DNA of 44,733 nt from a virus. Positions within the stretch are counted from its first letter, which is position 1. Each line of letters starts with the position of its first letter. Position numbers and translations under genes: made by a program. Positions 6,210 through 43,312 of this stretch are shown piece by piece. The notes beneath the pieces were generated by a model. That model was given only the letters and a program-made list of their open reading frames with translations. It ran no database searches and was not told the origin of the DNA. The stretch covers positions 1 through 44,733 of IMG/VR virus record IMGVR_UViG_3300007539_000041. The stretch is one strand, 5' to 3'.

Positions 6210-6213
6210 TAAC

Positions 6214-6864: not shown

Positions 6865-6873
6865 GGTTTTATT

Positions 6874-8061
6874 ATGTCGTATTCCATTTTCACAGGAAAG
6901 CAACGCTCGCTTGTTTTTCCAATTATGTGTAATGGTTTTTTAACGATAGATTATACCGATAATGTGGCCTCAACAGGAACAGGGATTACCTATGGTCTTT
7001 GGGATTTAGACGACAACTTTACCTTTGAGTGTGTCTTAACTCCCTATGAAATCAACGGTTATGGGACTCATAGCAGTACGGGCGACACTTACATACCCAC
7101 CACTGGGAACCTTTCAAAGGTGAGCCATAGCGATGGTTTAGGCATAGTTTCCAGTAGCAAAAAAATCATGTCTGCGTTAGAAGAATCCATCTACACCGCA
7201 GGGACACAGAACAATCATCAAAGCGAAGTTTATCTGCCAAGAGCAAATCGCAAAAATCACGAAATGAGAATCTTTCATAGCACCAACTTTCAAGTGAGTT
7301 TGGTAAATGATACTCTACACAATGAGAATAACCCTGCAAGATACAAAATTAAGGTAGGCATAAAATTAGGCACTGCTTCTATGGAGTATTTCACAAGCGA
7401 TGCAGTTATTTTGCCAAACGAAGGGGGGCAATATGATTACTCTTCCGTACCTGACTTACAGGGTTTTGATACCGATGGCAAGTTAAAATACAGAAGAATA
7501 AGTTTTGCTCTCGCCGGTTCATCGGGAACGACTCTTAAAATGACAACAGGCGCAGGAATTGATGATAAGTTATTTGAAAATGTTGAATTATTCACTAGAA
7601 GCGGAACAGATTTAGTATCTATTGGCCTATTTGATAGTAAGCCTTCTGCTAGCACTATTACTTTAAAGTCTGCATTAACAACAACTATTTCATCGGGCGA
7701 CCCAATTTTTATCAAACATATTCAAGAACCAAGTTATATTAACAACACATATCATATTGCTTGTTCTTGGGATAATCAAAACAAAGTTGCTAATGTGTTC
7801 TTCAATGGTCGCTTGGTCAAGACTGGAACGCATACGCAGACAACTTCTTTTGCTATGGCCGCAGAAGATTTTTACATTGGGGCTAACGGTGGAGGCGCAA
7901 CGGGGGCAAATTCGGCAACTACTAATAATCAATTCATGGGGGAACTCCATGAGTTGAGCATTATGAATATCAATAAAAGAGAGTTTAATGCCGTGAATAA
8001 CTTAATGCCTAATTTAAATGATACTGTTTTGTATTTGAGATTTGAGGAGGTGGATGATTAA
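6874..8061 (+). CDS. Tail-tip protein with LamG/concanavalin-like domain (395 aa)
   Basis: The C-terminal third has the pattern of a LamG-type jelly-roll lectin: YHIACSWDNQNKVANVFFNGRLVKTG, then a 'FYIGANGGG' strand and 'FMGELHELSIMN', ending LYLRFEEVDD. The N-terminal part also reads as a jelly roll (FTFECVLTPYEI). Such domains bind glycans and are common in tail tips and fibres. It ends in TAATG, overlapping the start of the giant downstream gene, so the two are translationally coupled and probably assemble together. Confidence 0.6.
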   Translation: MSYSIFTGKQRSLVFPIMCNGFLTIDYTDNVASTGTGITYGLWDLDDNFTFECVLTPYEINGYGTHSSTGDTYIPTTGNLSKVSHSDGLGIVSSSKKIMSALEESIYTAGTQNNHQSEVYLPRANRKNHEMRIFHSTNFQVSLVNDTLHNENNPARYKIKVGIKLGTASMEYFTSDAVILPNEGGQYDYSSVPDLQGFDTDGKLKYRRISFALAGSSGTTLKMTTGAGIDDKLFENVELFTRSGTDLVSIGLFDSKPSASTITLKSALTTTISSGDPIFIKHIQEPSYINNTYHIACSWDNQNKVANVFFNGRLVKTGTHTQTTSFAMAAEDFYIGANGGGATGANSATTNNQFMGELHELSIMNINKREFNAVNNLMPNLNDTVLYLRFEEVDD

Positions 8062-21985: not shown

Positions 21986-22893
21986 AACCACGAATCCTGT
22001 TGCGCTCCTTCGCAAATACCAAAGAAAGAACAATGGCTACAAGTTTTGTAATAAAACTTAGGCGCAAAGTGTTTATTTTCATAGGCATGAATTAATTCGG
22101 CAATATGATTCATAACAGAGGTCATTGTTCTTGTTTTGATAGGCTCAACTGTTATGTGATTTGCCACGGGATAATACCAGCCCCAATGAGATACTTCCAT
22201 ATCCTTTGATAGGCCATGCATTTGAAGAACTTCTTCTGTTGAGTTTTCAATCATCAATTGGTAGAATGCCATTTCCTTTCTCATACCCGTTGCTTTGTAG
22301 TCTTTCCATCCTCCGGTCTTGTATTCAAAGGGAATCAGTTTTCCGTTTTCAATAAATACTCGGTCAATAATTCCTTGGAGACGCACCTTGTAATCTCTTT
22401 GCAGAGTGAATTTCTTATGAGTGTCTTTAGGAATCATTACTTCGCAATCAAATTTCTTTTCATTAATGACTGGCAAAAATTCATCTGTCTTTCCTTCCGC
22501 TACTGCTTCAATAAAGCGTTGGGCTTCAAATGCCGCCACCGTTAAAGAAACATCGTAGTATTCATCTACTGGCATCAAAGAGTTGCAGTATTCCATGATT
22601 TCTGTATTGTTCATTTTCTCTGCCTTCTTAATGTCAAAATCATCAAAAAATGCTTCTCTGTGGTTGTGAAGAATTGTTCCTTTACGCATTGCTTCTGTTT
22701 GGTCTTGAGACAAACGCTCAACATAGGAGAACTCATATTTCTTAGGACACCAAACGAATGACATAAGAGAAGACTTAGAAATCTTCAAAATCGGTTCCGA
22801 TGGGTCGGAATAGTTCTCCGGCATCCACTTATATGTGAATTCTTTCATTTCTCCAAGCGATGCTTCGTATGCTTCTTCTTTATTCAAAACCAT
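21982..22893 (-). CDS. Cas4/RecB-like PD-(D/E)XK exonuclease with Fe-S cysteines (303 aa)
   Basis: The pattern fits Cas4/AddB-type nucleases: a first Cys in SFVWCPKKYEF (Cys49), GTILHNHREAF (His76), IDRVFIENGKLIPFEYKTG with Asp177, Glu190 and Lys192 as catalytic residues, a QMxFY-like KEMAFYQLMIE helix, then TCSHCSFFGIC (Cys285, 288, 294). The four Cys would hold an Fe-S cluster. The enzyme resects DNA ends in replication-linked recombination. The start ATG overlaps the PolB C-part stop, and GGAGG of the last PolB codons serves as ribosome-binding site. There is no CRISPR array in the window, so a role in spacer acquisition is not suggested. Confidence 0.8.
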   Translation of the reverse strand: MVLNKEEAYEASLGEMKEFTYKWMPENYSDPSEPILKISKSSLMSFVWCPKKYEFSYVERLSQDQTEAMRKGTILHNHREAFFDDFDIKKAEKMNNTEIMEYCNSLMPVDEYYDVSLTVAAFEAQRFIEAVAEGKTDEFLPVINEKKFDCEVMIPKDTHKKFTLQRDYKVRLQGIIDRVFIENGKLIPFEYKTGGWKDYKATGMRKEMAFYQLMIENSTEEVLQMHGLSKDMEVSHWGWYYPVANHITVEPIKTRTMTSVMNHIAELIHAYENKHFAPKFYYKTCSHCSFFGICEGAQQDSWL

Positions 22894-23771
22894 TCCTCCA
22901 GTGTTGTTTGTCCTTTTATTGTTCTAATGTTGTTAATTTGCCAACCCATCGCTTCATAGATAGGTTTAGCCTTTCTGATAAGTTGCTCTGCATAGTGGTG
23001 ATAGTCGGGCGTATAGGTGTTAAAATCCGAAAGGATTGTCCCCGAAACATACTCAACATCTCGCCTCTCTTTTGTCAAAGGGTTCGTGTATTTATCATTG
23101 ACCCCCGACACCTTCAAGAAAATGTAAGAGTCATCAAAGGTAGTGTTCTGCTTTTCCCAAGCATAGAGAACGCCAGCAATACCGGAACCAATTGAAGGGC
23201 GTTTGTCTTGTTCGGTTGTGAAGTTTTTCGGATTCTCTCCGCATCTTTCACACGCATAGACATTTAACATATCACGCATATTGAACTTTGCTCGGCACTT
23301 TTTACATTTCAGTTTAAATCTCTCTTCTTTCAACCTACTTCTCTTTGCTAAGTCGCTGATGGGTACTTCTCCATTCACCACTTTTTTGTAAGTTTCTGCG
23401 AGATAGGTGTTTATCTCAGCAAATGTCTTTTGGTTTGCCCACATCTTTAACAAAGTTGTTTGGAACTCCTTTGCTAATTTTGTTTCGCTAACTCGCTTTG
23501 CAGTGAAGCCAGTCATGGTGAATTTTGGTTCATCCAAATAAGAACCATCTTCCCATGTAATCATTCCTGCGTTTCTGTTTTTGACCGTACCGACACCCAA
23601 CGCTGAATAATACTTCTCAAACTCCAAACTAACGGGATGCTGTTCAAGTCCGAGAACATTCGGGAAACTTTTTTTGACTTCATCTTCAATCACCTTGATT
23701 GCTTTTTGTGCGGCTTCCACGGAATCAATTTGCACATAGATAGAATCGGTATGTCCATAAACCACTTTCAT
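22884..23771 (-). CDS. polB: Family B DNA polymerase, C-terminal part (palm motif C, thumb, PIP box; 295 aa)
   Basis: The chosen ATG at 23771 gives the start MKVVYGHTDSIYVQ, placing motif C at residues 5-10; GAGG lies 8 bases upstream. Motif C is YGHTDS, so the first Asp is His but the essential second Asp (Asp9) is kept. The thumb carries a zinc-ribbon-like insertion (FKLKCKKCRAKF ... ACERCGEN). The last residues GQTTLEEWF are a canonical PCNA-interacting (PIP) box, QxxLxxWF. It needs the N-terminal part encoded 580 bases upstream to be a working polymerase. An upstream in-frame ATG at 23822 is possible but would add residues alien to PolB. Confidence 0.85.
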   Translation of the reverse strand: MKVVYGHTDSIYVQIDSVEAAQKAIKVIEDEVKKSFPNVLGLEQHPVSLEFEKYYSALGVGTVKNRNAGMITWEDGSYLDEPKFTMTGFTAKRVSETKLAKEFQTTLLKMWANQKTFAEINTYLAETYKKVVNGEVPISDLAKRSRLKEERFKLKCKKCRAKFNMRDMLNVYACERCGENPKNFTTEQDKRPSIGSGIAGVLYAWEKQNTTFDDSYIFLKVSGVNDKYTNPLTKERRDVEYVSGTILSDFNTYTPDYHHYAEQLIRKAKPIYEAMGWQINNIRTIKGQTTLEEWF

Positions 23772-23775
23772 GTTA

Positions 23776-23976
23776 TCAGCCTCGGTAATGCACGAATAGC
23801 ATTCCAACGGGTTCACCTGCAAGTTTCGCTACCGTTTCTTGTAGTTCCGTAATTTGTGCTTTGATGTTTTGTAGTTTCTGCATATCAGCATACAGAGAAT
23901 CCATTTCATCAGCAATATGTTCCTTCATTTGTTTAATTTCTTTTAGGGTTTCAAAATATAGTTTTTCTTCTTTCAT
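23776..23976 (-). CDS. Coiled-coil microprotein inside the PolB split (66 aa)
   Basis: The ATG overlaps the stop of the TM peptide (TTATGA). Residues 1-50 form a charged, heptad-like coiled coil (LKEIKQMKEHIADEMDSLYA, then MQKLQNIKAQITELQETVAK). The C-terminus EPVGMLFVHYRG ends four bases before the PolB C-part start and contains its GAGG ribosome-binding site. Coiled-coil proteins of this kind often partner with small membrane proteins such as the neighbour. Function unknown. Confidence 0.6.
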   Translation of the reverse strand: MKEEKLYFETLKEIKQMKEHIADEMDSLYADMQKLQNIKAQITELQETVAKLAGEPVGMLFVHYRG

Positions 23977-24255: not shown

Positions 24256-24346
24256 TTGCCCATCTCCATTCTTTGTAGCATTTCCAGCAAAGTCCATGAT
24301 TTGGATGAATAGCCGTTCTTTTTCTGCATCGTTTGCATATTTTCAT
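24245..24346 (-). CDS. Zn-ribbon microprotein at the PolB N-part stop (33 aa)
   Basis: This short gene starts at an ATG that overlaps the PolB N-part stop (GTATGA) and ends at TAA 24245. The peptide MKICKRCRKRTAIHPNHGLC then WKCYKEWRWANEN has CxxC pairs at Cys4/Cys7 and Cys20/Cys23, so it is a minimal zinc ribbon with basic and aromatic residues. GGAG lies about 10 bases before the ATG within the PolB codons. It could bind nucleic acid or bridge the two PolB pieces, but this is conjecture. Confidence 0.55.
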   Translation of the reverse strand: MKICKRCRKRTAIHPNHGLCWKCYKEWRWANEN

Positions 24347-25980
24347 ACTTTCATCTCCTTAGCCTTAAATGCCGCTAAACGAATTGCTTCTCTTGCACTT
24401 GCAGTAATAGATGCGGCTAAATCTACATCAGCCCAACCAAAACCTTGGAAGGCAACGATACCATAGAAAGAAGCCATGAGTCTTTTAACCGCCATTTGAT
24501 TGTTATACCACTTTTGATATTCTCCATTGTTCGTCTCTCTTGCTTCTTTCATCAGTCGCTTGTAATCGTTCCGCAACTCTTTCAACTCAAGGACGGCTCT
24601 CGGAAGAAGCCCCAGTTTATCAGTCTTATAGTAGAGCATATCCCGGTGTTTTACATCGCTGAAATCTCTTGGCGTTGAGATGTTCACGGCAAACTCTGTT
24701 GGTTCTTCCGACTTGGTTTCCCAAGAAATGTTTCGTGCAATCATCATTGAAGGGTAAAGTCCTGCATAGTCAAATGCGGCCACATTCAAATGAAGCCCTT
24801 GAGTTTGTTCACTCAATGGGTCGTAAATCATAGCCCCGTCATATTCTCGGCGTTCAATATCTCTGTTTCCTGTTGGTGCTTTCCAAGTAGCGTTTCGCAT
24901 AAAATAGATTGAACCCATATGACTTGCATAAAAACAAGCATCAAAGGGTGCTTTCAACAAACGCTGTAATGAAACAATTGCTTCACTACAAAAGTTTGTT
25001 TCGTCAATACGCACTAATAATTCAACATCAACCACAGCATACTCCAAATACACTTCTGTATCTTCTAACCATGCTCTGCGGAAAAATTCGTTTTTGTCTT
25101 CAAATTTACCCTTCTTTACTTTACCTTCACCAAAAAGTGTTTGTGAAACATACTCAAGACTTAGAGAAGGTAATGTTCCTCTTTGTGAGTCATTCCATTG
25201 ACGCTCAAAAGCAAGGTCAAGAGAGAGACTTATGCGGCCCCCTACGGGCTGTTCAATGGGTGAGAAACCCTTTTCAGCATAGGCAAAAGAAAAGCCTCCC
25301 TTAGTCGCCTTAACCCCCTTAACGCTGGCAGTTGGAGATATGATGCGGGGGTCAATTCCCAAAGCACAAGCCCTCTTGAGAAGATGAGGCAAGTCAAACT
25401 TATTTCCAAACCAAGCAATTAACATATCGGGGTCTTTCATAATCATTGTATTCAAAAAAGAATCTATCATATCCCTTTCACTGCTAAAAACAAAACAGTT
25501 TGTCTCAGTATTGGTTTCTTCGGGAAACCAAACCCACTGTAAATACTCTTTATCGTAGTTATCATATGCAACAATCGTTGTAATGCAATCGTGAAACTCT
25601 CCACCCTGTTGCCATTCCATATCCCAATACCACTTACGCATTTCATACTCTGGCATTTTGTTGATTTCATCAACAGCATACCTAAAGTGATAAGGAACAT
25701 CGGCTTCATAGGTTTTAGAAAACTCTTCTTTTGCTTTACGAATATCAAAGGAAGATTCAACATAAACTTTCTTCAACTGTTGTCCTTCCAAATTAAAGAA
25801 GTCGCCTTCTTCATATTCAAATTGACGCTCAATGTATTTTGATGGCTTGTAGTGTCTAGGGGTTTCATTTTCATGAACATAAAAATATGGACGGAACGGA
25901 ACGATGTTCCATTTCTTCTCGCCATTTTCTCTCCAAGATGTGTATATATTTTGACCTTTATTCATTTTACTAATTATCAT
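24343..25980 (-). CDS. polB: Family B DNA polymerase, N-terminal part (exonuclease + palm A/B; 545 aa)
   Basis: The proofreading 3'-5' exonuclease is intact: YWDMEWQ (Asp120, Glu122), AWFGNKFDLPHL (Asp196) and YAVVDVELL (Tyr314, Asp318). Polymerase motif A is FDYAGLYPS (Asp404), and motif B is AVKRLMASFYG (about 498-507), with Ala in the usual Asn position of NSxYG. The protein stops after ...AAFKAKEMKV, exactly where an uninterrupted PolB would continue into motif C. The start follows directly after the PCNA stop (TGAATG). It must pair with the C-terminal part for activity. Confidence 0.9.
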   Translation of the reverse strand: MIISKMNKGQNIYTSWRENGEKKWNIVPFRPYFYVHENETPRHYKPSKYIERQFEYEEGDFFNLEGQQLKKVYVESSFDIRKAKEEFSKTYEADVPYHFRYAVDEINKMPEYEMRKWYWDMEWQQGGEFHDCITTIVAYDNYDKEYLQWVWFPEETNTETNCFVFSSERDMIDSFLNTMIMKDPDMLIAWFGNKFDLPHLLKRACALGIDPRIISPTASVKGVKATKGGFSFAYAEKGFSPIEQPVGGRISLSLDLAFERQWNDSQRGTLPSLSLEYVSQTLFGEGKVKKGKFEDKNEFFRRAWLEDTEVYLEYAVVDVELLVRIDETNFCSEAIVSLQRLLKAPFDACFYASHMGSIYFMRNATWKAPTGNRDIERREYDGAMIYDPLSEQTQGLHLNVAAFDYAGLYPSMMIARNISWETKSEEPTEFAVNISTPRDFSDVKHRDMLYYKTDKLGLLPRAVLELKELRNDYKRLMKEARETNNGEYQKWYNNQMAVKRLMASFYGIVAFQGFGWADVDLAASITASAREAIRLAAFKAKEMKV

Positions 25981-32538: not shown

Positions 32539-32991
32539 TCAATCCTTGATGTATTTTTCGTTGGCTTTCCAATAACCAGCAACTCTTTCATTTGTTTCAA
32601 GCCAGTGAATATGGGCGGCAGTGATTCGGGCATCGCCTCGCTCCAATGCGTTTTGTTCGGCATTTGTTATCACATTTGCGATAGCGGTTTCTGCCCATTC
32701 ATAGAGAAAGTTCTTTGCAGTTCTTGAAATCTGCAAGTCTGTATTTTCTTTCATTATGCTTGTGAGGTTTAATTTGCTTCGTGTGCGAGGCCTAATGACT
32801 ACTGGTTTTTCGGGAGTAATTAATTTACCATCTGCCATGTACGGGCATTCCCTTACAGGGATTTTTGTTGGTCGCCCTTGGTCATGTAAAACATTCTTAA
32901 GGTGAGCAATCTCCTGTTCAATTTTGATGCAACGATAGGTATTTCTTTTCCCGTTATTTACGATAATGGTCAATCCACCAACTTCAATCAT
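32539..32991 (-). CDS. Histone-fold protein with N-terminal extension (150 aa)
   Basis: The C-terminal 60 residues have the helix-strand-helix-strand-helix layout of an archaeal histone: LTSIMKEN (helix 1), NTDLQIS loop, RTAKNFLYEWAETAIANVIT to NALERGD (long helix 2), ARIT and AAHIHWLE (helix 3). 'RxSxxA...fl...a..i...A...A...gR.ri....I' spacing is right. The N-terminal 70 residues are an extra domain with a coiled segment and a basic RPRTRSKLN linker. It could compact viral DNA or modulate transcription. It overlaps the ligase stop (ATGA), with GGAGG upstream. Confidence 0.6.
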   Translation of the reverse strand: MIEVGGLTIIVNNGKRNTYRCIKIEQEIAHLKNVLHDQGRPTKIPVRECPYMADGKLITPEKPVVIRPRTRSKLNLTSIMKENTDLQISRTAKNFLYEWAETAIANVITNAEQNALERGDARITAAHIHWLETNERVAGYWKANEKYIKD

Positions 32992-35283: not shown

Positions 35284-35476
35284 CTAACTCTCTCCTTAAT
35301 ATTTCATACAGCATTTTCGCTTCTTCAATGTTTAAGCGAATGCCTTTTCTTGTCGGTTTATCGTTTTGAAACCAACGAATGTCAAGCACTTCAATGTTCC
35401 AATACATTCCACGCTTGACAATGATTTCATCCTTTTCGTTTCGGATAATTCTTCCTGTAATTTGTAAATCCGTCAA
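35270..35476 (-). CDS. PC4-like transcriptional coactivator / ssDNA-binding protein (68 aa)
   Basis: A TTG start at 35476 overlapping the upstream stop (TTGA) with GGGGTGG upstream is preferred; a GTG at 35485 is the alternative. The sequence contains YWNIEVLDIRWFQNDKP and TRKGIRLNIEEAKMLYEILR, matching the PC4 fold in which 'vDIRew...pgrKGIsLtxeqwxxL' is the signature. PC4-like proteins bind single-stranded DNA and modulate promoter opening, which fits beside a viral TFB and histone-like protein. Confidence 0.65.
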   Translation of the reverse strand: MTDLQITGRIIRNEKDEIIVKRGMYWNIEVLDIRWFQNDKPTRKGIRLNIEEAKMLYEILRRELDEDS

Positions 35477-35868
35477 TTCATCCACCCCTGTTTAAATTTG
35501 TCAAGTTCTTGTTTTGAGGTAAAGTATCTCGGCGTATCTAAATCATCTAAACGATTTACAATCCAACAGGCCCCACCAAGAGAAGAAATTTGAACAACTT
35601 CATATTGGCCTTGATTTACTTCAAGGACTTCAATGGTGTTCACTTCCGGCGTTAAGCCATACTTCTTGGTTAATTCCGAGGCAACTGTTCTAATGTTCTC
35701 CGCCACATATTTGATGATGTGCGCTCTTTGAATTGGTATTTTGGGAGCAACATCAATCTTTAATGAGCCTGTCATTTTACAGACATGGCATTTATTTCCC
35801 TCACAAATAGGGCATTTAATTTGAGCCTTATGTGGTGCGGGTAAAACAACTGTTATGGCCTTCTTCAA
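35473..35868 (-). CDS. Zn-knuckle protein (131 aa, TTG start)
   Basis: The start is TTG at 35868 overlapping the upstream stop (TTGA), with GGGGTGG 5 bases before it. CPICEGNKCHVC gives Cys19, 22, 27 and 30, a compact zinc knuckle. The rest is a helical-plus-beta domain (AHIIKYVAENIRTVASELTK, then YEVVQISSLGGACW). No family is recognised. It may bind nucleic acid. Confidence 0.55.
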   Translation of the reverse strand: MKKAITVVLPAPHKAQIKCPICEGNKCHVCKMTGSLKIDVAPKIPIQRAHIIKYVAENIRTVASELTKKYGLTPEVNTIEVLEVNQGQYEVVQISSLGGACWIVNRLDDLDTPRYFTSKQELDKFKQGWMN

Positions 35869-35986: not shown

Positions 35987-37471
35987 TTATTCCTCCACCA
36001 ATACTGCAACTTCTGTTGAATAGAACAACTGTGCAATTGACATAGCGGCAAGAAGACTATTCTTGGCAACCTTTACTGGGTCAAAGACTCCTTCTTCTTC
36101 CAAGTTAGCCATTTTGCCACTTAATGCATTAAAGCCCATAGGATATTCTTCGGGAGGAACGGGGGATAGATTACTATTCTCAAAGAGGGCTTCGTAGGGT
36201 GCGCTCATAGCGTCCTTGAACCAATTTGGTGCATCAATTCTTTGAGAAACTTCCATCAAAGCACGACCCCCACCAACAACAATACCTTCTTCTAAAGCCG
36301 CCTTTGTTGCATTCAAAGCATCGTCAAGGCGTTCTTTCTTCTCAAGCATTTCAATTGAAGAAGAAGCACCGACTTTGATTGTGGCTACCTTTCCACGAAG
36401 GCGAACAATACGGGACTTTAGGCGAGCCGCTTCAAAACCTTCCATTGATTTGACTTGTTCTTTCAAGTAGTCAATTCGGTTAAGTGTGTTGCCTTTGCCA
36501 CCAATCAAAACGGTTCTTTCCTTTGAAATAATAATGCGCTCGCATTCTGCTAAATCACCCTTGACAAATTGAGAGGCACTATCCTTGCTTTCTTCGGTGA
36601 AGACTTTACCGCCCATCAAACATTGAATGTCTCCTAATTCATCCAATTGTTGGTCGCCAAAGTTAGGCGCAAGAACAACCGCACATTCCACGGTTTTATT
36701 GATGATATTTGCCAGTAGATTATTCAATGCTGAACCATCCATCCCTTTACAGAAGATAACCAACGGTCTGCTTTGATTAGCGGCATATTCCAACAGCCCG
36801 ATAATGTCCTTGAAGTTTCGGAATTTCATGTTTGACATGAACACCAAAGGATTCTCAAATACGGCTTTACCGTTTGGTTGGTTTGCCATCAAGTGGCTGA
36901 TGTAGCCTTCGGGAATCTGCATTCCTTCTCGCACAATTAATTCGGTAATATGGGTTTTTGATTCTTCAACAGTCAAAGCACCTTCACGCCCTACTTCTTC
37001 AATTCCTGCTTGAATCAAAACACCAAGGTTTGGGTCATTGTTTGCCGCAATTGTAGCGACATTGAGAATATCATCATCCTCAATTTTGATTGACAATTCA
37101 TCCAAACCTTGAAGCATTTTTACCTTCAAGTCGTCAAGAGTTTCATAGAACTTGTGAGCGTTCATCTCAGGCAATTGAGAAATCTTGGTGCAAAGCATTC
37201 TCGCAAGAATACAAGCCGTTGTGGTTCCGTCTCCCGAACCTTCTTGTGCTTTACTTGCTAGATTTTGAACCAATTGCACACCCATTTGAACATAAGGGTC
37301 TTCGTGAGAAATGTATTTGGTAATGGTCACCCCGTCATTAATCACAATTGGAGGGTTGTTTTGTAGAATAACAGTTTTGGCTTGAGGCCCAAGTGTTGGC
37401 TGAACGGTATCAGCCACCAAGTTAATTCCCTGCAATAGTTTCTGCTTTACTTCTTCTCCGTTGATAATCAT
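35987..37471 (-). CDS. groEL: Group I chaperonin, GroEL-like (494 aa)
   Basis: Hallmarks are clear: LGPQAKTVIL, VINDGVTITKYI, DGTTTACILARM, the apical-domain GYISHLMANQ, FGDQQLDELGDIQCLMGG, then RLDDALNATKAALEEGIVVGGG and a nucleotide-binding C-terminal DPVKVAKNSLLAAM segment. This is group I (GroEL), not the archaeal group II thermosome. It is about 50 residues shorter than bacterial GroEL and lacks the GGM tail. It forms an ATGA overlap with the GroES-like gene. It likely folds capsid or tail proteins in an archaeal host. Confidence 0.9.
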   Translation of the reverse strand: MIINGEEVKQKLLQGINLVADTVQPTLGPQAKTVILQNNPPIVINDGVTITKYISHEDPYVQMGVQLVQNLASKAQEGSGDGTTTACILARMLCTKISQLPEMNAHKFYETLDDLKVKMLQGLDELSIKIEDDDILNVATIAANNDPNLGVLIQAGIEEVGREGALTVEESKTHITELIVREGMQIPEGYISHLMANQPNGKAVFENPLVFMSNMKFRNFKDIIGLLEYAANQSRPLVIFCKGMDGSALNNLLANIINKTVECAVVLAPNFGDQQLDELGDIQCLMGGKVFTEESKDSASQFVKGDLAECERIIISKERTVLIGGKGNTLNRIDYLKEQVKSMEGFEAARLKSRIVRLRGKVATIKVGASSSIEMLEKKERLDDALNATKAALEEGIVVGGGRALMEVSQRIDAPNWFKDAMSAPYEALFENSNLSPVPPEEYPMGFNALSGKMANLEEEGVFDPVKVAKNSLLAAMSIAQLFYSTEVAVLVEE

Positions 37472-37683
37472 TCAACCACCGCCATAACCATTTCATAGGG
37501 TACGAATTTGTAGCCATCATATTCTTGAATTGTTTTTGCCATAGAGAAAATAATAGTTTTCCCAACGAGGTTTTCATCACAAGCACAGGACAATACTTTG
37601 CCCAGATTGTTCTCTTTCATGGTGATAATACCATGACTTTGAACTTCTTGCTCAACAATCACAAAATTATTCATGGCCTTCAT
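37468..37683 (-). CDS. groES: Minimal GroES-like co-chaperonin (71 aa)
   Basis: ATG at 37683 overlaps the previous stop and has GGAGGAAG upstream. The strand order FVIVEQEV, GIITMKENNLGKVLSCA, VGKTIIFS and the ending VPYEMVMAVVE matches GroES, where the last is like 'DILAVVE'. The mobile loop that contacts GroEL is reduced but keeps a GIIT (IVL-like) hydrophobic core. GroES is normally about 95-100 residues, so this is a stripped version without roof loop. Adjacency to GroEL is decisive for the call. Confidence 0.8.
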   Translation of the reverse strand: MKAMNNFVIVEQEVQSHGIITMKENNLGKVLSCACDENLVGKTIIFSMAKTIQEYDGYKFVPYEMVMAVVE

Positions 37684-37997
37684 TCTTCTTCCTCCGAAGG
37701 AAGTGCAATCCATCCACGGCGAGTATTTGAAATCCAAGTATAAACATGAGTCTTGTAAAACTCTTTCAATTTCTTATCTCTTTCAGTCTTCTTTGACTTA
37801 GCCCATTGAATGCCCTTTTCTGTTTTTTGTTCATTCTTATCATTCGGGTGGTTCTTCATGTGGCGTTCCTTTCTTTCCGTCATAGGCATAGACTCATAGT
37901 AATGATTAGGCCTATCAGGGTATTTTGCCGCAGTATCTAATCCACTTTTAATGGACTTGTATGTTTGTTTTGACGATGTAAATTCTTTCTTCTTCAT
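37680..37997 (-). CDS. Basic lysine-rich protein, unknown (105 aa)
   Basis: The ATG overlaps the JAMM gene stop (ATGA). The sequence is highly basic and polar (KNHPNDKNEQKTEKGIQWAK, then KKTERDKKLKEFYKTHVY), ending in a WISNTRRGWIALPSEEEE strand. A basic C-terminal part might bind nucleic acid. No domain is recognised. Confidence 0.5.
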   Translation of the reverse strand: MKKKEFTSSKQTYKSIKSGLDTAAKYPDRPNHYYESMPMTERKERHMKNHPNDKNEQKTEKGIQWAKSKKTERDKKLKEFYKTHVYTWISNTRRGWIALPSEEEE

Positions 37998-38566
37998 TCT
38001 TCTTCACCTCTTGGTCTTTGTTGTGTTTGTTCCGGTTCTCCATTCTCATAGATTTCCAGTTCGTTTTTATTGTGCTTGCTCCAAAAGCCATAGTGTCCTT
38101 TCGTGGACATAAAACTCCCAAGAACATATGCACAATTCATATGTTCTTCCCAAATGTTGATTGTTCTCCAATCCGTTCCGCTAAAATATGCGGCTCCAAA
38201 TGGGTGAGTGTGAATCCAGCACTTGATAGGTAATTTCATTCCAATAAGTGTGGATGGGTCAATAGTCAAGTAATCAACATATCCTGCTGTTCCCGTAGAA
38301 ACATAGATGTTATTCTTTGAATCAATAACCGCTTGGACTTCCAAGTGAGGAAGTATGTTTGATGAAGCATACCAAATAGCATCATGTAAAGCCAACGAAT
38401 GTTCAGCATCTTGAACAACAGTAAAGTCTTCCCAACCCACTGTTGATGTTGCTTCCATCAAACATTTATTCCATGTTTCTTCAACATGACGACACGCTTC
38501 AATTCTTGCTTCTTCCAATTCCTTTCTTTTTTGCACGATTATTTTTGCTCTTTCTTCATTATTCAT
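37994..38566 (-). CDS. JAMM/MPN (JAB) metalloprotease (190 aa)
   Basis: The HxHx7SxxD motif is complete: HTHPFGAAYFSGTD (His119, His121, Ser129, Asp132), with an upstream Glu in HLEVQAVI as catalytic base. This is the zinc isopeptidase fold that removes ubiquitin-like proteins. An N-terminal basic coiled helix (IVQKRKELEEARIEACRHV) precedes it. ATG at 38566 with GAGGTG upstream is preferred over the GTG at 38575. Together with the E1-like gene it forms a possible ubiquitin-like system. A tail-assembly JAB role is less likely because it lies outside the structural block. Confidence 0.75.
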   Translation of the reverse strand: MNNEERAKIIVQKRKELEEARIEACRHVEETWNKCLMEATSTVGWEDFTVVQDAEHSLALHDAIWYASSNILPHLEVQAVIDSKNNIYVSTGTAGYVDYLTIDPSTLIGMKLPIKCWIHTHPFGAAYFSGTDWRTINIWEEHMNCAYVLGSFMSTKGHYGFWSKHNKNELEIYENGEPEQTQQRPRGEEE

Positions 38567-39053
38567 TTGTTTCACCTCTTAGGCGCATCAACTTATCGTT
38601 GAGTTTGTTCATTTTAGCGATTATACGCTTCTCCTTACGGCTTGAAGGAATCTTGGGTATGTAAGGTTCCTTTCGTTCTCGGACGGTCATAGCGGCCTTC
38701 CTAACAAGTTCTATGTGGGTCAGTTCTGTGCTGTCAATCAGTTGCTCAAGACGACCAGCACATTCAGCATAACTACAATTAAACCATTGTCGCACTTCAT
38801 CAATACTCATGTCATAGAAATTAACCAGCAAGAATAAATCTTTCTTCGCATCCCAATCCGATGAAGTTTGAGTTTCTTCAACAATAACTTTAGTTTGTTG
38901 TAGTTTCTTCCATTTCATTTTTGTTGCGTGTGCTGAACGCTTATTTCCAGAAACGGATTCAACCGCATAAGCGACTGATTCAAATTCAGTCGCATTGGTA
39001 ATCTTCAACAATAATTCCTCTTCTTCCTTTGTCCATTTTATTCCTCGGCTCAT
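38559..39053 (-). CDS. Myb/SANT-like tandem helix DNA-binding protein (164 aa)
   Basis: The N-terminal part IKWTKEEEELLLKITNA with SVSGNKRSAHATKMKWKKL resembles a Myb/SANT repeat (W..EE..LL...). A second one is DWDAKKDLFLLVNFYDMSI then VRQWFNCSYAECAGRLEQL. The C-terminus is basic (SRKEKRIIAKMNKL). It could be a viral regulator of transcription. It lies between the E1-like and JAMM genes with ATGA overlaps. Confidence 0.55.
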   Translation of the reverse strand: MSRGIKWTKEEEELLLKITNATEFESVAYAVESVSGNKRSAHATKMKWKKLQQTKVIVEETQTSSDWDAKKDLFLLVNFYDMSIDEVRQWFNCSYAECAGRLEQLIDSTELTHIELVRKAAMTVRERKEPYIPKIPSSRKEKRIIAKMNKLNDKLMRLRGETNE

Positions 39054-39607
39054 ACATTCACCACCATATATTCTCTAACTTCTTCGCCGTTAAACCAGCG
39101 TTGAATCCATTGTGCGCCCAATCCTGCAATTGCGACTTGCATGTAATGAACGCCTTTATTTGTTCCATCCCATGAATCTCCTTGACAACTAAAAGAACCT
39201 TCTTCTCCGGCTAAAAGCATATCATACATCTTCGGGTCTGCTTTATGACTCACAAGTGCGGCGTTCCTACCTTGCGCCCGTAAGTCAAGCCACTTAACAT
39301 TTGTGTTGTAAAGGGTTCGTCGCAACCCGATGTTATCAACACAACAAATAACCAAATCAAATCCTTTCATTTGTGATTCTGCAAGAATAGGATAGGGACT
39401 CATATGAACAACAGACCCATACTCGTCTCTCATCACGCTTGCTTTGTTTTGCCCAATGTGTCCTTTCTTGAAATTTTGGTATGACATATTCTTTTTCTCT
39501 ACCTTATCTGGGTCGGAAACTGAAATGTTATACAACCCTGCTCTGTGTAGAATAGGAATTAGAAAACTTCCAATTCCACCTGCTCCAATTACTAATACCT
39601 TTCTCAT
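39050..39607 (-). CDS. ThiF/E1-like adenylyltransferase (185 aa)
   Basis: ATG at 39607 overlaps the upstream stop (TAATG), with GGAGG 9 bases before, so it is chosen over starts at 39670 and 39616. The Rossmann motif VIGAGGIGSF (8-13) and SDPDKVEKKNMSYQNF (Asp32, Asp34, Asn40) match the E1/ThiF/MoeB fold that adenylates the C-terminus of a ubiquitin-like protein. The usual Arg of NxxRQ is Tyr. Only one candidate Cys remains (GSFSCQGD), so CxxC zinc pairs are missing. No ubiquitin-like partner is visible nearby. Confidence 0.75.
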   Translation of the reverse strand: MRKVLVIGAGGIGSFLIPILHRAGLYNISVSDPDKVEKKNMSYQNFKKGHIGQNKASVMRDEYGSVVHMSPYPILAESQMKGFDLVICCVDNIGLRRTLYNTNVKWLDLRAQGRNAALVSHKADPKMYDMLLAGEEGSFSCQGDSWDGTNKGVHYMQVAIAGLGAQWIQRWFNGEEVREYMVVNV

Positions 39608-39786
39608 TATTCCCATCCTCCATTTTCTATTGTGTATTTTATTGTTTCTAAATCCCAAATCTTTTGACATTCAAGACATTCTGCTGTTTTATCTGTTGGT
39701 TTCCATTGAACCACCGTTGGATGGTCGCCAAAATGAACATCAGCGCAAAGGCAACTAAAGCCCAAAATTAATTTATCTTCTCTCAT
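39607..39786 (-). CDS. Zn-binding microprotein (59 aa)
   Basis: ATG at 39786 has GGAGGAAT upstream, and its TAA forms TAATG with the E1-like start. Two CxC/CxxC-type pairs (SCLCADVH and AECLECQKIW) flank a beta segment with His residues, suggesting a zinc ribbon. The start and stop overlaps make it a real gene although very short. Function unknown; the coupling suggests it acts with the E1-like enzyme. Confidence 0.55.
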   Translation of the reverse strand: MREDKLILGFSCLCADVHFGDHPTVVQWKPTDKTAECLECQKIWDLETIKYTIENGGWE

Positions 39787-39798
39787 ATTTATTCCTCC

Positions 39799-40122
39799 TT
39801 AAAACGATTTGCCATGCATAAATTCACGGCTTTTATTGTATTCAATCTTAGCGAGAATCGCACCCGCTACATCTAAGTCCATACCAAAAGCATAGTCCAT
39901 AATCCGAATTATCACATCTGCAAATTCTTCTTCAACACTACTAAACTCCATGATTTTATTTGATGACGGATTTCCATCACGCATGGCTTCCAATGCTTCG
40001 GATAATTCCGAATGCATAAGAGCAACTGCTTCTCCATCATTTCTATCTACTTGCCAAAAGCCATGATTCACGGCATTGGTGTAAATTGTTTTTGCTAATT
40101 TATTCCATTCTTTTTCAAACAT
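39799..40122 (-). CDS. MazG-like NTP pyrophosphohydrolase (107 aa)
   Basis: The all-alpha MazG fold is seen in LMHSELSEALEAMRDG (ExxE) and EEEFADVIIRIMDYAF (ExxD), the four metal ligands. An ATG at 40122 overlaps the TFB stop region; AGGTGA lies 5-6 bases upstream. Enzymes of this kind hydrolyse NTPs or dNTPs, keeping the nucleotide pool clean or regulating alarmones during infection, and are common in marine viruses. Confidence 0.75.
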   Translation of the reverse strand: MFEKEWNKLAKTIYTNAVNHGFWQVDRNDGEAVALMHSELSEALEAMRDGNPSSNKIMEFSSVEEEFADVIIRIMDYAFGMDLDVAGAILAKIEYNKSREFMHGKSF

Positions 40123-40981
40123 CTGTTTCACCTATTTTGTTTATATCTTTGCCTCTTAATTGTTTTACCGACTCTTTCCCAATCAAGGCTAAAAGGGATT
40201 TTGTCTGTTGATATATATTCTTTTCATCAAAAGAACATAACTTGCTAATTTCTTTACGGCTCGGTAGTTTTCTCTCAAAAATATTTGAGGTTATCCAACA
40301 AATCGCCGCATAGTAGCATTTGCCTTTTGTGAAATTACTATTGCTCACAATATTCTCAAATCGGGCAAGGACTTCCAAACATTGTTGGAGATAAATTCTA
40401 TCCTTTGTTATCTGCAACACATGGTATTCTAGTTGATATGCAGGATTAACTTCGGTATAATTGATTTGATTACGATAAAGAGAGTTGAGTCTCCTAATTA
40501 TCTTACGCACATTTTTTGGCTTGACTTCAAATTCTACCATAATTTTCTTAAGAGGTAGGGGCGTACCTCGCTCTTTCAAAGCATAGAAAACAACGGCAGT
40601 GGCTCTATCTTCAAAAGGAGTTTTACCGAACACTCCTTTTCTGTATGCCTCCATGTAAATTTTCTCAACTCTTTCTTTCAAAGACGGAGAAGGGGAAAAG
40701 TTCGCCAAAACCATATTGCAGTGTAGTAGAGCCTGTTGGATGTTTGTGGGTACAACGCTTCTTTTAAGGCGGTTAAACTTGTAAGACCCTTCTCCGGTGA
40801 TAATGGAACCCAAATATCCCTTATCGGGAGAGCGAGCCACCTCACCTTTACTGTCCAAAATGTGAACAGTTTCTTCAAACATCTCAGTTATGAGAACAAG
40901 ACCGCATGAATCACACACACGCTCTCCCATCTCTTCATCAAAACTACTATCCGTACTACCGCATTCTTCGCATTTGTTCAT
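40115..40981 (-). CDS. tfb: Transcription initiation factor TFB (288 aa)
   Basis: The N-terminal zinc ribbon is MNKCEECGST then RVCDSCGLVL (Cys4, 7, 23, 26). A B-finger-like linker follows (SPDKGYLGSIITGEG). Two cyclin folds make up the rest (SPSLKERVEKIYMEAYRKG ... RATAVVFYALKERG, and YLQQCLEVLARFENIVSNSN ... CYYAAICWITS). A viral TFB would steer RNA polymerase to viral promoters. Its start overlaps the upstream gene by 26 bases. Confidence 0.9.
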   Translation of the reverse strand: MNKCEECGSTDSSFDEEMGERVCDSCGLVLITEMFEETVHILDSKGEVARSPDKGYLGSIITGEGSYKFNRLKRSVVPTNIQQALLHCNMVLANFSPSPSLKERVEKIYMEAYRKGVFGKTPFEDRATAVVFYALKERGTPLPLKKIMVEFEVKPKNVRKIIRRLNSLYRNQINYTEVNPAYQLEYHVLQITKDRIYLQQCLEVLARFENIVSNSNFTKGKCYYAAICWITSNIFERKLPSRKEISKLCSFDEKNIYQQTKSLLALIGKESVKQLRGKDINKIGETDV

Positions 40982-42122
40982 TTATATCCGCCCTATTTTC
41001 ATTTGGTTCTCCTGTGATGTAAGAATTAATCGTACTCACAATCTTAATTGTAAAATTATCATTGAGTAATGCCATTGCTCTTGCGGCAAATTGGTCGCCA
41101 ACAGATGAATGAACAGTCATATTGTCAATGCAAATTGGCCCATGCCACTTGCTTTTTTCCTCACCTTTTTGCCAAACATAAGTTGAAACATTTTGAGTTC
41201 CACTCGCTTTGTAGTTTTTACAATCAAGTTTCCAATCATAACCTTTACCCCGAACAAAGAGAGTGTTCAAGGTCTTATCGTCGTTCCAAACAGGGAACAA
41301 TCTTTCCGGTTGTTTTTCCACCATGTCTGTAATGAGTTGAAAGGCTCTCCTTTCCACAAGGTCTTGCTTTCTGTTTTGTTGTAGAAAGGCAATCATTAAT
41401 TTTAATTCAGCCGAAGTGGGTTCTCGCTTTACAAGTTTGGTAAAGAGATTTTTGGGGGAAGTAAAAGGCCAAGAACCTCTTTTCTTACCATGAACATAAA
41501 AATTACAATAACGGTCTAATTCTTTAAAAGATATTTCTCCCCAAACACCATCACTTACTTCTACTGCACAAGTGCTAGTTCCGGTTCGTTGAACATTTAT
41601 TCTCACATCATGTTTTTCATAATCTTCGTAAAAAAAGAAAGGAAGACGATTCTCAAGAACATACGATACATTCTCAGGTATTTGTAAATTATTCCAAAGG
41701 ACTTTATTCAGTTCTGTTGCCGAATCGGTGAAACAACTTCTGTAAATAACTCTAGCCAGCACATCTGACATGTTCTCAAGAGAAAGATAAATACCATTTA
41801 CATGATGTCGCCCCGAATTTTTCTGTATAAATACAGAAAGTTCTTTTATTTGTAATACACCTGTGTAGTTTGCTGGTATGTTTCTTCTGCCATAATAAGT
41901 GCGCCTAGATTTTTGAAAAATGCCCTTGATGAAGTCCTTAATTCCATCGTGAATTGGATTTACCGAGCGACTCCCACCCCTACTTACTCTTCGGTGTACG
42001 GGTTTTTCTCCGAAAAGCCTTTCATCATTGGTATGATAAAATGCTTCGGAAGAGATAGTTGTTGTGTAGGTTCCGCCGGAATCATCGGGTCTATTTATTT
42101 CTAATCTGTAAGTTGGTATCAT
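40956..42122 (-). CDS. Unknown protein upstream of TFB (388 aa)
   Basis: The protein is soluble, alpha/beta, with a basic N-terminal region (FGEKPVHRRVSRGGSRSVNP). Near the C-terminus WKLDCKNYKASGTQNVSTYV and WHGPICIDNMTVHSSVGDQF are conserved-looking. No catalytic motif is recognised. It overlaps the TFB start, so the two are probably translated together; a replication or transcription accessory role is possible. Start ATG at 42122 overlaps nothing; GATGTGATG is a weak ribosome-binding site. Confidence 0.5.
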   Translation of the reverse strand: MIPTYRLEINRPDDSGGTYTTTISSEAFYHTNDERLFGEKPVHRRVSRGGSRSVNPIHDGIKDFIKGIFQKSRRTYYGRRNIPANYTGVLQIKELSVFIQKNSGRHHVNGIYLSLENMSDVLARVIYRSCFTDSATELNKVLWNNLQIPENVSYVLENRLPFFFYEDYEKHDVRINVQRTGTSTCAVEVSDGVWGEISFKELDRYCNFYVHGKKRGSWPFTSPKNLFTKLVKREPTSAELKLMIAFLQQNRKQDLVERRAFQLITDMVEKQPERLFPVWNDDKTLNTLFVRGKGYDWKLDCKNYKASGTQNVSTYVWQKGEEKSKWHGPICIDNMTVHSSVGDQFAARAMALLNDNFTIKIVSTINSYITGEPNENRADINEQMRRMR

Positions 42123-42126
42123 TGCA

Positions 42127-42288
42127 TCACATCATATATATTTTGGTATTGTCTTTGTTGCATTTATCATGCATTTCATTTTTAATTTCGTCTGGTGAGT
42201 ATAGTTTATTGCCGCATACTCGGCACATCGTGGCAACTCTATTGCCTTTTCTGTTATTTAGAATGTATTCAGGATTCTTTTCTTTCAT
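42127..42288 (-). CDS. Zn-finger microprotein (53 aa)
   Basis: An ATG at 42288 lies inside the end of the 115-residue gene; AGGTTGGG is upstream. The peptide contains RVATMCRVCGNKLYSPDEIK then EMHDKCNKD, giving Cys22, Cys25, His40 and Cys43, a CxxC...HxxC finger. It ends four bases before the next gene's ATG. The pattern resembles small zinc fingers of phages and archaeal viruses. Confidence 0.6.
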   Translation of the reverse strand: MKEKNPEYILNNRKGNRVATMCRVCGNKLYSPDEIKNEMHDKCNKDNTKIYMM

Positions 42289-42616
42289 AATTAATACCCA
42301 ACCTTTTTTGGATTACTTGTCTATCTTGACAAATTAAGCATGGTTCTCCTGAACAGTTTTTGGAATGGTAAGCGAACACTTCCTCGTATTCTTGAATATG
42401 TCTTTGTAAGTATTTAGCAAAGCCTTCATCTATGGCTTTAGGAATAGACCATAAACAATCATATATCGTATGAGTTAATGAAAAAGAATTAAAATAATGG
42501 TCATCATGTTTTGCTAATTTGGCCCAACGCTCTATTCTTTTAAATTCTTTTGGAGGAAGGTCGTTGAAAAGTTTAGTGCAAGAAGATAAAAGAAGTTCCA
42601 CTTCCAACTTTAACAC
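42269..42616 (-). CDS. Helical protein with C-terminal Cys cluster (115 aa)
   Basis: The start is a GTG at 42616 overlapping the upstream stop (GTGTTAA). The body is helical (LLLSSCTKLFNDLPPKEFKR, then FAKYLQRHIQEYEEVFAYHS). The C-terminal HSKNCSGEPCLICQD has three Cys and a His that could bind zinc. It overlaps the Zn-finger microprotein by 20 bases. Function unknown. Confidence 0.5.
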   Translation of the reverse strand: MLKLEVELLLSSCTKLFNDLPPKEFKRIERWAKLAKHDDHYFNSFSLTHTIYDCLWSIPKAIDEGFAKYLQRHIQEYEEVFAYHSKNCSGEPCLICQDRQVIQKRLGINYERKES

Positions 42617-42990
42617 CTGTATTTCTTTCGCATAGGTATTTTTTGTAGGGTATCAAAGAAGTAAAGAGACTCTTTACCATCTTTTGTTAAAACCCATTCT
42701 TTTTCTGCTAAGAAAGTCCAGTTGTTAAAATCATTGAGAGCGTATTTCCATTTGCCAAGTAGTTCTTGCACAGAATTAAATTCTTGGTCTTTGTATTGGA
42801 TAACTGTATAACCTTTCGCCCAAATATATCCACGCTTTGCTAAAGCAATAACATGGTTATTGGGATAAAAGTCTGGTTTGAATACTGCTACATCCTCATG
42901 AATGTAGGGATTCATTAATTTCCAACCCAACACATCAAGTTGGATTTGGAGGGCTTTGGGCGATATAAAAAACTTGTAATCGGTTTGCAT
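42610..42990 (-). CDS. Unknown protein (126 aa)
   Basis: ATG at 42990 is chosen, with GGGTG directly upstream; an upstream TTG at 43041 and an overlapping short frame exist. The sequence MQTDYKFFISPKALQIQLDV then AVFKPDFYPNNHVIALAKRG and WKYALNDFNNWTFLAEKEW is alpha/beta with many aromatic residues. No signature recognised. The start codon is uncertain. Confidence 0.45.
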   Translation of the reverse strand: MQTDYKFFISPKALQIQLDVLGWKLMNPYIHEDVAVFKPDFYPNNHVIALAKRGYIWAKGYTVIQYKDQEFNSVQELLGKWKYALNDFNNWTFLAEKEWVLTKDGKESLYFFDTLQKIPMRKKYRC

Positions 42991-43055
42991 CACCCAAAAA
43001 TGGGGATGCCTCCATGTGGTCGGACATGGCGACACCCCCAAGGGTAATAGGAAAC

Positions 43056-43089
43056 ATCGTTAGGAGGTTCAGTATTGGCCTCCAACGAT
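43056..43089 (-). promoter_or_regulatory. Strong RNA hairpin at the end of the 71-aa-like gene
   Basis: ATCGTT (43056-43061) pairs with AACGAT (43084-43089), and after a bulged A62 GGAGG (43063-43067) pairs with CCTCC (43079-43083), an 11-bp stem with one bulge and an 11-base loop. The stop codon of the small gene (43071-43069) lies in the loop. There is no U-tract, so it is more likely an attenuator, processing or stability element than a terminator. Confidence 0.5.
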
Positions 43090-43278
43090 GGCGGGGGTTA
43101 AGTCCACAGACTGAACCGTTTCCCAGTTGATTTGTTCAATTCCTTCACGGGCAACCATTTCACCGTCAATGAACACCCAATGCGTTGGGTGGTCGTAGAT
43201 TTGGTCAATCACTTCGGTTGCCGCAAGGCTAAGTTCCGTATGTCCTGTTTCGTTCAAAATTCGTAGTGTAATCATCAT
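43069..43278 (-). CDS. Small acidic protein, unknown (69 aa)
   Basis: ATG at 43278 has AGGAAGTGAG upstream. The protein begins MMITLRILNETGHTELSLAA and has DQIYDHPTHWVFIDGEMVAR and a C-terminal strand. It is a small alpha/beta domain of unknown function. It is preceded by a good TATA box at 43313-43320 and followed by a hairpin, so it may be expressed separately and strongly. Confidence 0.55.
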   Translation of the reverse strand: MMITLRILNETGHTELSLAATEVIDQIYDHPTHWVFIDGEMVAREGIEQINWETVQSVDLTPAIVGGQY

Positions 43279-43312
43279 TCTCACTTCCTGTATTTTCCTA
43301 TGTTTTGTCTCC

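Follow-up and report, generated by a model that had tools for sequence, protein, structure and literature searches.

A putative ubiquitin-like conjugation pathway encoded by a probable virus of marine archaea

Described systems and conservation of the viral gene set

To our knowledge, the ubiquitin-like protein (Ubl) conjugation systems described for prokaryotes are cellular or plasmid-borne, and several of them are antiviral. Here we analyze the IMG/VR virus record IMGVR_UViG_3300007539_000041 (positions 1 to 44,733; this whole stretch of 44,733 nucleotides is called the window below), whose minus strand encodes a Ubl modifier, an E1-like adenylating enzyme, a probable E2-like protein (P388) and a JAMM metalloprotease. 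We consider it likely that with these four components the virus encodes a Ubl conjugation pathway of its own, in which case a prokaryotic virus would reverse the usual picture of a host that tags its virus. This proposal is based on the Gly-Gly end of the Ubl, the motifs of E1 and JAMM, gene order and its conservation, homologues in the host, and natural Ubl-E1 and E1-JAMM fusions; from these sequence features we infer the enzyme activities, the E2 role of P388 and the conjugation to proteins. The record also encodes PolB (in two open reading frames, ORFs), a ligase, an ERCC4-type nuclease, a tail tube protein and an AAA ATPase that is RFC-like by reading. Judged by its gene content and its host-homologous genes the virus is probably a magrovirus, i.e. 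an archaeal tailed virus of Poseidoniales (Marine Group II); no named magrovirus was among the matches listed in our searches for relatives.

The operon of Caldiarchaeum resembles the viral set in that it encodes a ubiquitin precursor, an E1, an E2 and a JAMM that cuts the precursor exactly after Gly-Gly, and it differs in being cellular, in having E3 proteins and in the similarity of its JAMM to Rpn11 (PMC6043591; this and all other papers given by PMC number are cited for those parts of their text that were available to us). The SAMP/UbaA/JAMM system of Haloferax likewise comprises an archaeal Ubl, an E1 and a JAMM, and in this organism an archaeal Ubl marks the basal transcription protein TBP2 for the proteasome (PMC4895103). 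In contrast to this system, the viral E1 scores only 29.3 against a UbaA cut-off of 450, and the ThiS family was not found in the 28 virus records searched. The bacterial antiphage systems Bil and CBASS Cap2 share the logic of E1, E2, JAB and Ubl with the virus (see also PMC11354881), but the viral E1 reaches 46.1 against the cut-off of 320 of the NCBIfam Cap2-type model, and PADLOC E1-E2 models cover approximately 40-100 of its residues among the matches listed. Borg elements are, like the virus, mobile archaeal elements with JAMM proteases (deSAMPylases) and one SAMP; they differ in combining many JAMMs with this single SAMP, and the E1 named in the available text is that of the host (PMC12660748). 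Finally, a ThiF/MoeB gene was listed in the RaFAH paper among the most prevalent auxiliary metabolic genes of archaeal viral genomes; ubiquitination is mentioned in the part of that paper available, whereas a Ubl, JAMM or E2 partner is not described in it (PMC8276007). In the virus group analyzed here, such a "MoeB/ThiF metabolic gene" may serve protein tagging rather than metabolism. A term search of the available main text of a 2023 magrovirus paper found ThiF, JAB, ubiquitin and chaperonin unmentioned (PMC10160649), and a literature search whose scope left out most subscription literature returned no report of a Ubl system in Poseidoniales or magroviruses.

An earlier note on this DNA, made from the sequence alone, had described an E1-like/JAMM cassette at 37994-39786 together with a Zn microprotein and a Myb-like protein. 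All four ORFs are indeed present on the minus strand, and the E1-like gene lies 0.5 kb from a JAMM gene whose E/HxH/SxxD motif is intact. The idea of a conjugation module has fared well and can be extended beyond the cassette to a Gly-Gly modifier and a probable E2, whereas the link to CBASS-type systems is not borne out by the model scores given above. The note had seen no ubiquitin-like modifier, which was wrong: a beta-grasp protein with a Gly-Gly end, for which it had recommended searching the rest of the genome, is encoded at 43069-43284. Its suggestion that the enzymes act on a SAMP- or Urm-like protein of the host for want of a viral modifier has thereby lost its premise.

The gene set recurs in related viruses. 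IMG/VR was scanned twice, with the E1 (best 80 of 99 relatives) and with the JAMM as query, which gave 140 loci; some contigs are included twice, and the resulting counts are biased because all loci were picked by E1 or JAMM. E1 was found in 136, JAMM in 139 and both in 135 of these loci. Whenever both are present they are encoded on the same strand with JAMM downstream (135/135; median gap 784 bases), and in the five exceptions (L015 without JAMM; L116, L119, L131 and L140 without E1) the sequence available ends at or before the place expected for the missing gene. In a separate scan with the Ubl only (best 80 of 213 relatives), 74 loci included at least 8.9 kb downstream of the Ubl gene. There, P388, the transcription factor TFB and E1 were present in 74/74 and JAMM in 73/74, in the order Ubl-P388-TFB-E1-JAMM. 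Searched with the viral Ubl alignment, all 28 contigs of 65-185 kb contain the Ubl, as a single copy except for two copies in the 184-kb record. Among eight genomes that were read in pieces, Ubl, P388, TFB and JAMM were recognized in all and E1 was called in seven; the E1 of the eighth spans a piece boundary and is known from L059. A TFB match was detected in 113 of 119 loci with P388, always at most 84 bases away from it. We regard Ubl-E2like-TFB-E1-JAMM as a core gene block of these viruses.

A set as constant as a structural module might act in virion morphogenesis, with Ubl and JAMM maturing or capping structural proteins as has been proposed for protein I and for the JAB domain of protein K in the lambda tail. 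We know of no E1 in lambda-type clusters. A Ubl is paired with a JAB domain in phage tail clusters (PMC1779556), but the viral block is located together with TFB, PolB and ligase in the minus-strand half of the window, and the tail tube gene is not alongside; a morphogenetic role therefore appears highly improbable to us compared with protein conjugation.

Modifier, E1-like enzyme and JAMM protease

The modifier is a protein of 71 amino acids (aa; 43069..43284, minus strand) with the C-terminus PAIVGG-QY, in which the Gly-Gly (codons at approximately 43078-43083) is followed by a tail of two residues. Its family was reached by way of a Poseidoniales protein in which two Ubls are naturally fused to an E1: a hmmsearch model built from 52 distinct host repeats yielded 77 matches, among them the window Ubl with E=4.6e-20. 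Without exception, the 80 distinct viral Ubl C-termini consist of Gly-Gly and a tail of zero (12), one (15) or two (53) residues, which fits a precursor trimmed by the JAMM. In the AlphaFold2 (AF2) model (predicted local distance difference test, pLDDT, 85.7; predicted template modelling score, pTM, 0.67) the elements follow the beta-grasp order b-b-a-b-b-a-b, with strands at residues 5-9 and 16-20, a helix at 22-31, strands at 35-39 and 42-44, a helix at 46-51 and a strand at 59-64. A Foldseek search with this model had a ubiquitin-like domain as its top row (E=9.8e-3); no row reached E<=0.001 and some were not ubiquitin-like. A second structural comparison gave mostly Ubl-type chains (MoaD, SUMO, ubiquitin, UFM1, bacterial Ubl) with Z 4.9-5.9 among the 50 matches listed, and a sequence profile search of the PDB found no match to any Ubl. 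A viral modifier of the ThiS/MoaD type had also been considered; it was rejected because PF02597, the ThiS family of Pfam, had no match at E<=10 in any of the 28 virus records and the modifier was found from the host Ubl-E1 fusion.

The E1 ORF spans 39050-39670 on the minus strand, and the start MRKVLVIGAGG conserved among its relatives lies at 39607, which results in a protein of 185 aa (39050..39607). It matches Pfam ThiF with E=2.8e-18 and 66.4 bits (cut-off 28.1). The GxGGIG motif, Asp34, Asp36, Asn42, Gln46, Lys57, Asp93, Arg98 and Cys143 are invariant across 39 diverse viral E1s (numbers follow a 187-aa query starting at 39613; the Cys143 codon is near 39185-39187). The enzyme thus shows what defines the ThiF superfamily, a Rossmann adenylation domain with GxGGxG plus conserved Asp, Asn, Lys and Asp. 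Cys143 is kept in 66 of 67 aligned rows (virus 25/25, host 31/31, PRTRC 4/4, crAss-like 6/7 with one gap) and is a candidate for the catalytic residue that would carry a thioester (or persulfide).

The nearest named relatives of the viral E1 are the ThiF protein of PRTRC loci on plasmids and the E1 of crAss-like phages (hhalign 99.3% and 99.1%), and the SC motif is common to them. The viral E1 scores only 43.7 against the PRTRC_ThiF cut-off of 144.75, however, and the other proteins of PRTRC loci (some of them recorded as hypothetical and labelled A and F by reading) match no viral neighbour. The crAss-like phages (Steigviridae) have adjacent E1 and JAB genes which are both homologous to the viral pair, but neither of the two families compared with P388 (gp78, gp75) is homologous to it, and none of five neighbour families has a conserved Gly-Gly end, gp73 having GG near its end in three of seven sequences. 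Homology of P388 with gp78 or gp75 or with PRTRC-locus proteins was rejected at 0.1-0.3%. Neighbouring JAB and E1 genes of crAss-like phages can be seen in L143 (2256-4654), L142, L145 and L186-L189, where some are annotated as metalloprotease or thiamine biosynthesis protein; the start of gp79, a protein without a Gly-Gly end, looks beta-grasp-like by reading. In a tree of the 67 E1 rows (25 from viruses, about half of the non-redundant set, 31 from hosts, 7 crAss-like and 4 PRTRC) a branch with support 97/81 splits virus plus host from PRTRC plus crAss-like sequences, and the host rows (99/88) and the virus rows (93/93) form one group each. The root was placed at the midpoint for display, and the deep joins are unsure owing to several long branches, among which is that of the host sequence L281. 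We take the viral set to be related to the system found in the cells of these archaea and to have probably diverged from it long ago.

The JAMM metalloprotease (193 aa; 37994..38575, minus strand) contains the motif HTHPFGAAYFSGTD at approximately 38171-38212. Glu79, His122, His124, Ser132 and Asp135 are invariant in all 36 aligned sequences (31 viral and 5 host), and the protein thus has the Glu plus HxHx(7)SxxD metal site that characterizes JAMM/MPN+ proteins. Among the matches listed from a phage collection there were no named relatives of it.

Ubl, E1 and JAMM could alternatively form a sulfur-carrier pathway, in which the E1 would make a Ubl thiocarboxylate that serves RNA thiolation or the synthesis of cofactors or cysteine. 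The JAMM would then merely trim the carrier. In the CysO/Mec+ and Qbs systems a JAMM does trim a sulfur carrier. The viral E1 is a member of the ThiF superfamily and matches ThiF/MoeB models with scores below their cut-offs, and Ubl, E1 and JAMM genes co-occur in sulfur operons, too (PMC1779556). Yet no rhodanese, sulfurtransferase or cofactor enzyme besides the E1 itself exceeded a Pfam cut-off among the 30 window proteins scanned (a part of all ORFs), both the constancy of the E2-like partner and the tandem Ubls of the host look like conjugation, and separate ThiS/MoaD-like and ThiF proteins are kept in all 15 host genomes searched. The neighbourhood also lends no support to thiamine or molybdopterin synthesis, the functions that would have spoken against the proposal of the earlier note. 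We consider the sulfur-carrier pathway unlikely, and continue with protein conjugation as the preferred explanation.

The cellular counterpart in Poseidoniales

Host genomes were chosen by a 16S probe scan, which returned 67 stretches titled Poseidoniales, Poseidonia or Thalassarchaeum relative, Marine Group II, Euryarchaeota and, in one case, Thermoplasmatota; 15 genomes were searched. Each of them contains a ThiS/MoaD-like protein and, matching at E<=7.5e-76, a ThiF protein that reads as UbaA/MoeB-like (in one genome with an internal stop), and 13 have a Prok-JAB match, three of them over the cut-off. With the viral E1 alignment as query, 210 of 243 Poseidoniales genomes have a match at E<=1e-8; the best match reaches E<=1e-15 in 105 of the 243 (counted by hand), mostly in open frames of approximately 190-300 aa, and the remaining matches are weak. 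A search of genome contigs with a short peptide pattern retrieved 78 stretches, none of which held close relatives. Among 20 host stretches, a short E1 and a nearby JAMM are separate ORFs in 13 and fused in two (L310, L320). Only the JAMM was read in L314, L316 and L318, where the E1 is obscured by an overlapping ORF but was placed in those genomes by the E1 search; L303 has neither gene and L307 only larger ThiF ORFs. Common flanking families occur in 13 or 14 of the 20 stretches, seven carry a P388-like member, and one locus (L302) lies inside a 2.06-Mb contig titled Marine Group II chromosome. The L307 stretch (genome G039) additionally contains a separate cluster at 4753-12495, in which a large JAB-like ORF is accompanied by two ThiF ORFs that are also large; it may be a defence operon, and three ORFs there begin with the same 25 residues.

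The E1 of L319 (genome G158) opens with two repeats of approximately 70 residues, each ending in GLVGG; searched with this pair, 120 of 292 Poseidoniales genomes gave a match at E<=0.001. We read 28 host Ubl ORFs (L319 and L321 represent the same gene), 25 with two to four repeats and three with a single one; tandem forms are over-represented here because two repeats served as the query for these loci. A single Ubl ORF is found directly ahead of the JAMM in L301, and in L310 and L320 directly ahead of the fused E1-JAMM gene. Most host Ubls end in or near Gly-Gly. Some tandem Ubls with three to four repeats (L325, L328, L334, L335, L339, L340) represent a polyubiquitin-like arrangement in archaea, and the two-repeat Ubls ending in LLAG-Q (L331, L336, L337, L338, L345) are possibly a non-conjugated form. 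The 78-aa host protein following the JAMM (cl5) was dropped as a candidate modifier, as it has no Gly-Gly end and a helical-looking sequence. The L319 locus reads as an operon of a TFB-like gene, a P388-like gene, Ubl-Ubl-E1, JAMM and an 81-aa protein, and could be a mobile element. RING and UCH genes were found in one Marine Group II genome by a survey (PMC4327156).

The cellular system thus has E1, JAMM and Ubl proteins homologous to those of the virus, an E2-like member in part of the stretches and, in G158, an adjoining TFB-like gene; it differs from the viral set by its tandem Ubls, its Ubl-Ubl-E1 and E1-JAMM fusions and the 78-aa protein, whereas the viral genes are separate and the viral E1s form a distinct group. 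A set that is constant across the virus group would thus be mirrored by a poly-Ubl system of an abundant archaeal order. If the proposal is correct, this adds a new branch to the question of how E1-E2-ubiquitin cascades originated in archaea, and it supplies defined proteins together with naturally occurring Ubl-E1 and E1-JAMM fusions.

Homology between viral and host parts is also what would be expected if the virus used its proteins for counter-defence, i.e. to hijack or poison a host Ubl system that is itself antiviral like Bil or CBASS, and the many JAMM proteases of Borg elements were proposed to act in such a way (PMC12660748). The virus, however, encodes modifier, E1, E2-like protein and JAMM rather than a lone inhibitor or protease, and this set is constant across the sampled viruses and not accessory. 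In addition, the surroundings of the host genes on the chromosome recur and include genes that look metabolic (names by reading). The anti-defence device that the earlier note had offered as an alternative is not favoured over a working pathway by any of our observations: conservation extends to the main catalytic residues of E1 and JAMM and to the P388 Cys, although one usual Arg of the E1 is replaced. We judge counter-defence quite improbable, and a viral conjugation pathway remains the explanation we prefer.

The E2-like protein, the proposed pathway and neighbouring genes

P388 (388 aa; 40956..42122, minus strand) has an invariant Cys331 (GPICID; codon near 41130-41132), found in 60/60 and 48/48 viral sequences. 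Its AF2 model (pLDDT 89.2, pTM 0.66) shows a putative UBC-like C-terminal domain at residues ~250-382, in which Cys331 of the GxICID motif directly follows the strand 324-330 and lies ahead of the helix 341-353. In E2 enzymes the motif is GxICLD, with the Cys placed between a strand and a helix and close behind the former. In a structural comparison 229 of 994 chains reached Z 2, and the 50 matches listed for the C-terminal domain all have the E2/UBC fold (including Mms2 and FANCL), aligned at ~250-382 with root-mean-square deviations of 3.2-5.2. The first rows of a Foldseek search comprise kinetochore and BRCA1-A chains, which we take to be RWD or UEV (UBC-like) proteins, alongside unrelated ones. 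Nine pooled host proteins give a profile match of 85.9% with P388 over 103 columns, sharing the Cys and a GD motif; by reading, eight of the nine have a counterpart of Cys331, the exception being the apparently interrupted L309. The predicted fold and the Cys motif make P388 a probable E2-like protein, a reading that sequence profiles do not support; it may instead have an RWD-like, non-catalytic role.

Several observations weigh against an E2 function of P388 and against a complete conjugation pathway. The structural Z scores of P388 are only 4.6-5.6, and values below 8 may reflect a mere common arrangement; Foldseek found nothing at E<=0.001 and a profile search of PDB sequences was empty. 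A comparison of the P388 profile with three E2s was near chance (score 18.4, with 4 of 100 shuffles as high), the window P388 has no HPN motif ahead of Cys331, and when compared alone the host subgroups match P388 with 68, 23, 20, 2 and 0.3%. Because the Z scores are modest and sequence profiles unsupportive, we call the protein E2-like, with fair confidence. For the E1, position 45 is Tyr in 24/25 viral and His in 30/31 host rows, and Arg in 4/4 PRTRC rows; an Arg at this position is presumably the usual catalytic one (NxxR of MoeB/E1). The short E1 probably has no separate Cys domain. The window Ubl matches no Pfam family, and the window JAMM scores 18.2 on Pfam Prok-JAB, under the cut-off of 25. 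The Gly-Gly end is not universal in the host, where five tandem Ubl ORFs end in LLAG-Q and the Ubl of L301 in VFG, and an E3 was not identified, although no search aimed at E3s was made.

In the pathway we propose, the JAMM would mature the Ubl precursor by a cut behind Gly-Gly that removes its short tail. The E1 would adenylate the Gly-Gly end of the Ubl with ATP and then form a thioester at its conserved Cys, from which P388, as an E2-like enzyme, would accept the Ubl on Cys331 and pass it to target proteins; the JAMM would probably also take the tag off conjugates. Transcription proteins come to mind as targets because TFB constantly neighbours P388, but this is a guess which we consider doubtful. 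We lean slightly towards a wider picture of an ocean-virus lineage with a self-sufficient core Ubl cascade (modifier, E1, E2 and deconjugase) running parallel to the poly-Ubl system of the host, which would retag the infected cell and perhaps eliminate transcription factors of the host to the benefit of the viral TFB, whose gene lies within the block.

In the order of transcription the minus-strand block comprises Ubl, two ORFs of 115 and 143 aa (42269-43041), P388, TFB-like, MazG-like, Zn microprotein, E1, Myb-like, JAMM, a 105-aa protein, GroES-like, GroEL and a 131-aa protein, all on the same strand; from P388 through GroEL, adjacent genes overlap or sit approximately 12 bases or less apart. 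The TFB-like transcription factor (40115..40981), whose gene adjoins and overlaps that of P388, matches Pfam Zn_Ribbon_TF with E=2e-6, just below the cut-off. The MazG-like pyrophosphatase (39799..40131; PHROG 3301 pyrophosphatase, E=1.6e-30) is accessory and was not seen in all relatives. The 59-aa Zn microprotein (39607..39786), likewise accessory, is present as an ORF with cysteines and belongs to no Pfam family; six distinct sequences including that of the window were recognized. Similarly, the ORF labelled Myb-like in the earlier note exists (164 aa; 38559..39053), while its label corresponds to a Pfam Myb_DNA-bind_6 match of E=0.018, below the cut-off; it is a variable accessory gene between E1 and JAMM, detected in 57 of the 140 loci.

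Downstream of JAMM lies an accessory protein of 105 aa (37680..37997; 65/140 loci). C-terminal Glu runs in JAMM and in this protein were considered as a processing motif and set aside, since they probably result from start codons overlapping the next gene. The GroES-like protein (89 aa; 37468..37737), without a Pfam match, is named by its position beside GroEL and its length. The GroEL-type chaperonin (35987..37471; Pfam Cpn60 E=4.5e-36, and NCBIfam GroEL models) is linked to the block but not constant, being present in five of the eight genomes read in pieces and not found in the other three; a chaperonin pair (35987-37737) thus adjoins JAMM in a probable archaeal virus. The block ends with a conserved 131-aa protein (35473..35868; 128/140 loci and seven of the eight genomes). 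Among the 74 loci found by the Ubl, GroEL occurs in 42 and the 131-aa protein in 37, with many loci ending too early for either. Elsewhere in the window, PolB is split into ORFs at 22884-23822 and 24343-25980 with approximately 520 bases between them, and the protein encoded at 32539-32991 has a weak histone-fold match (CBFD_NFYB_HMF) below the cut-off.

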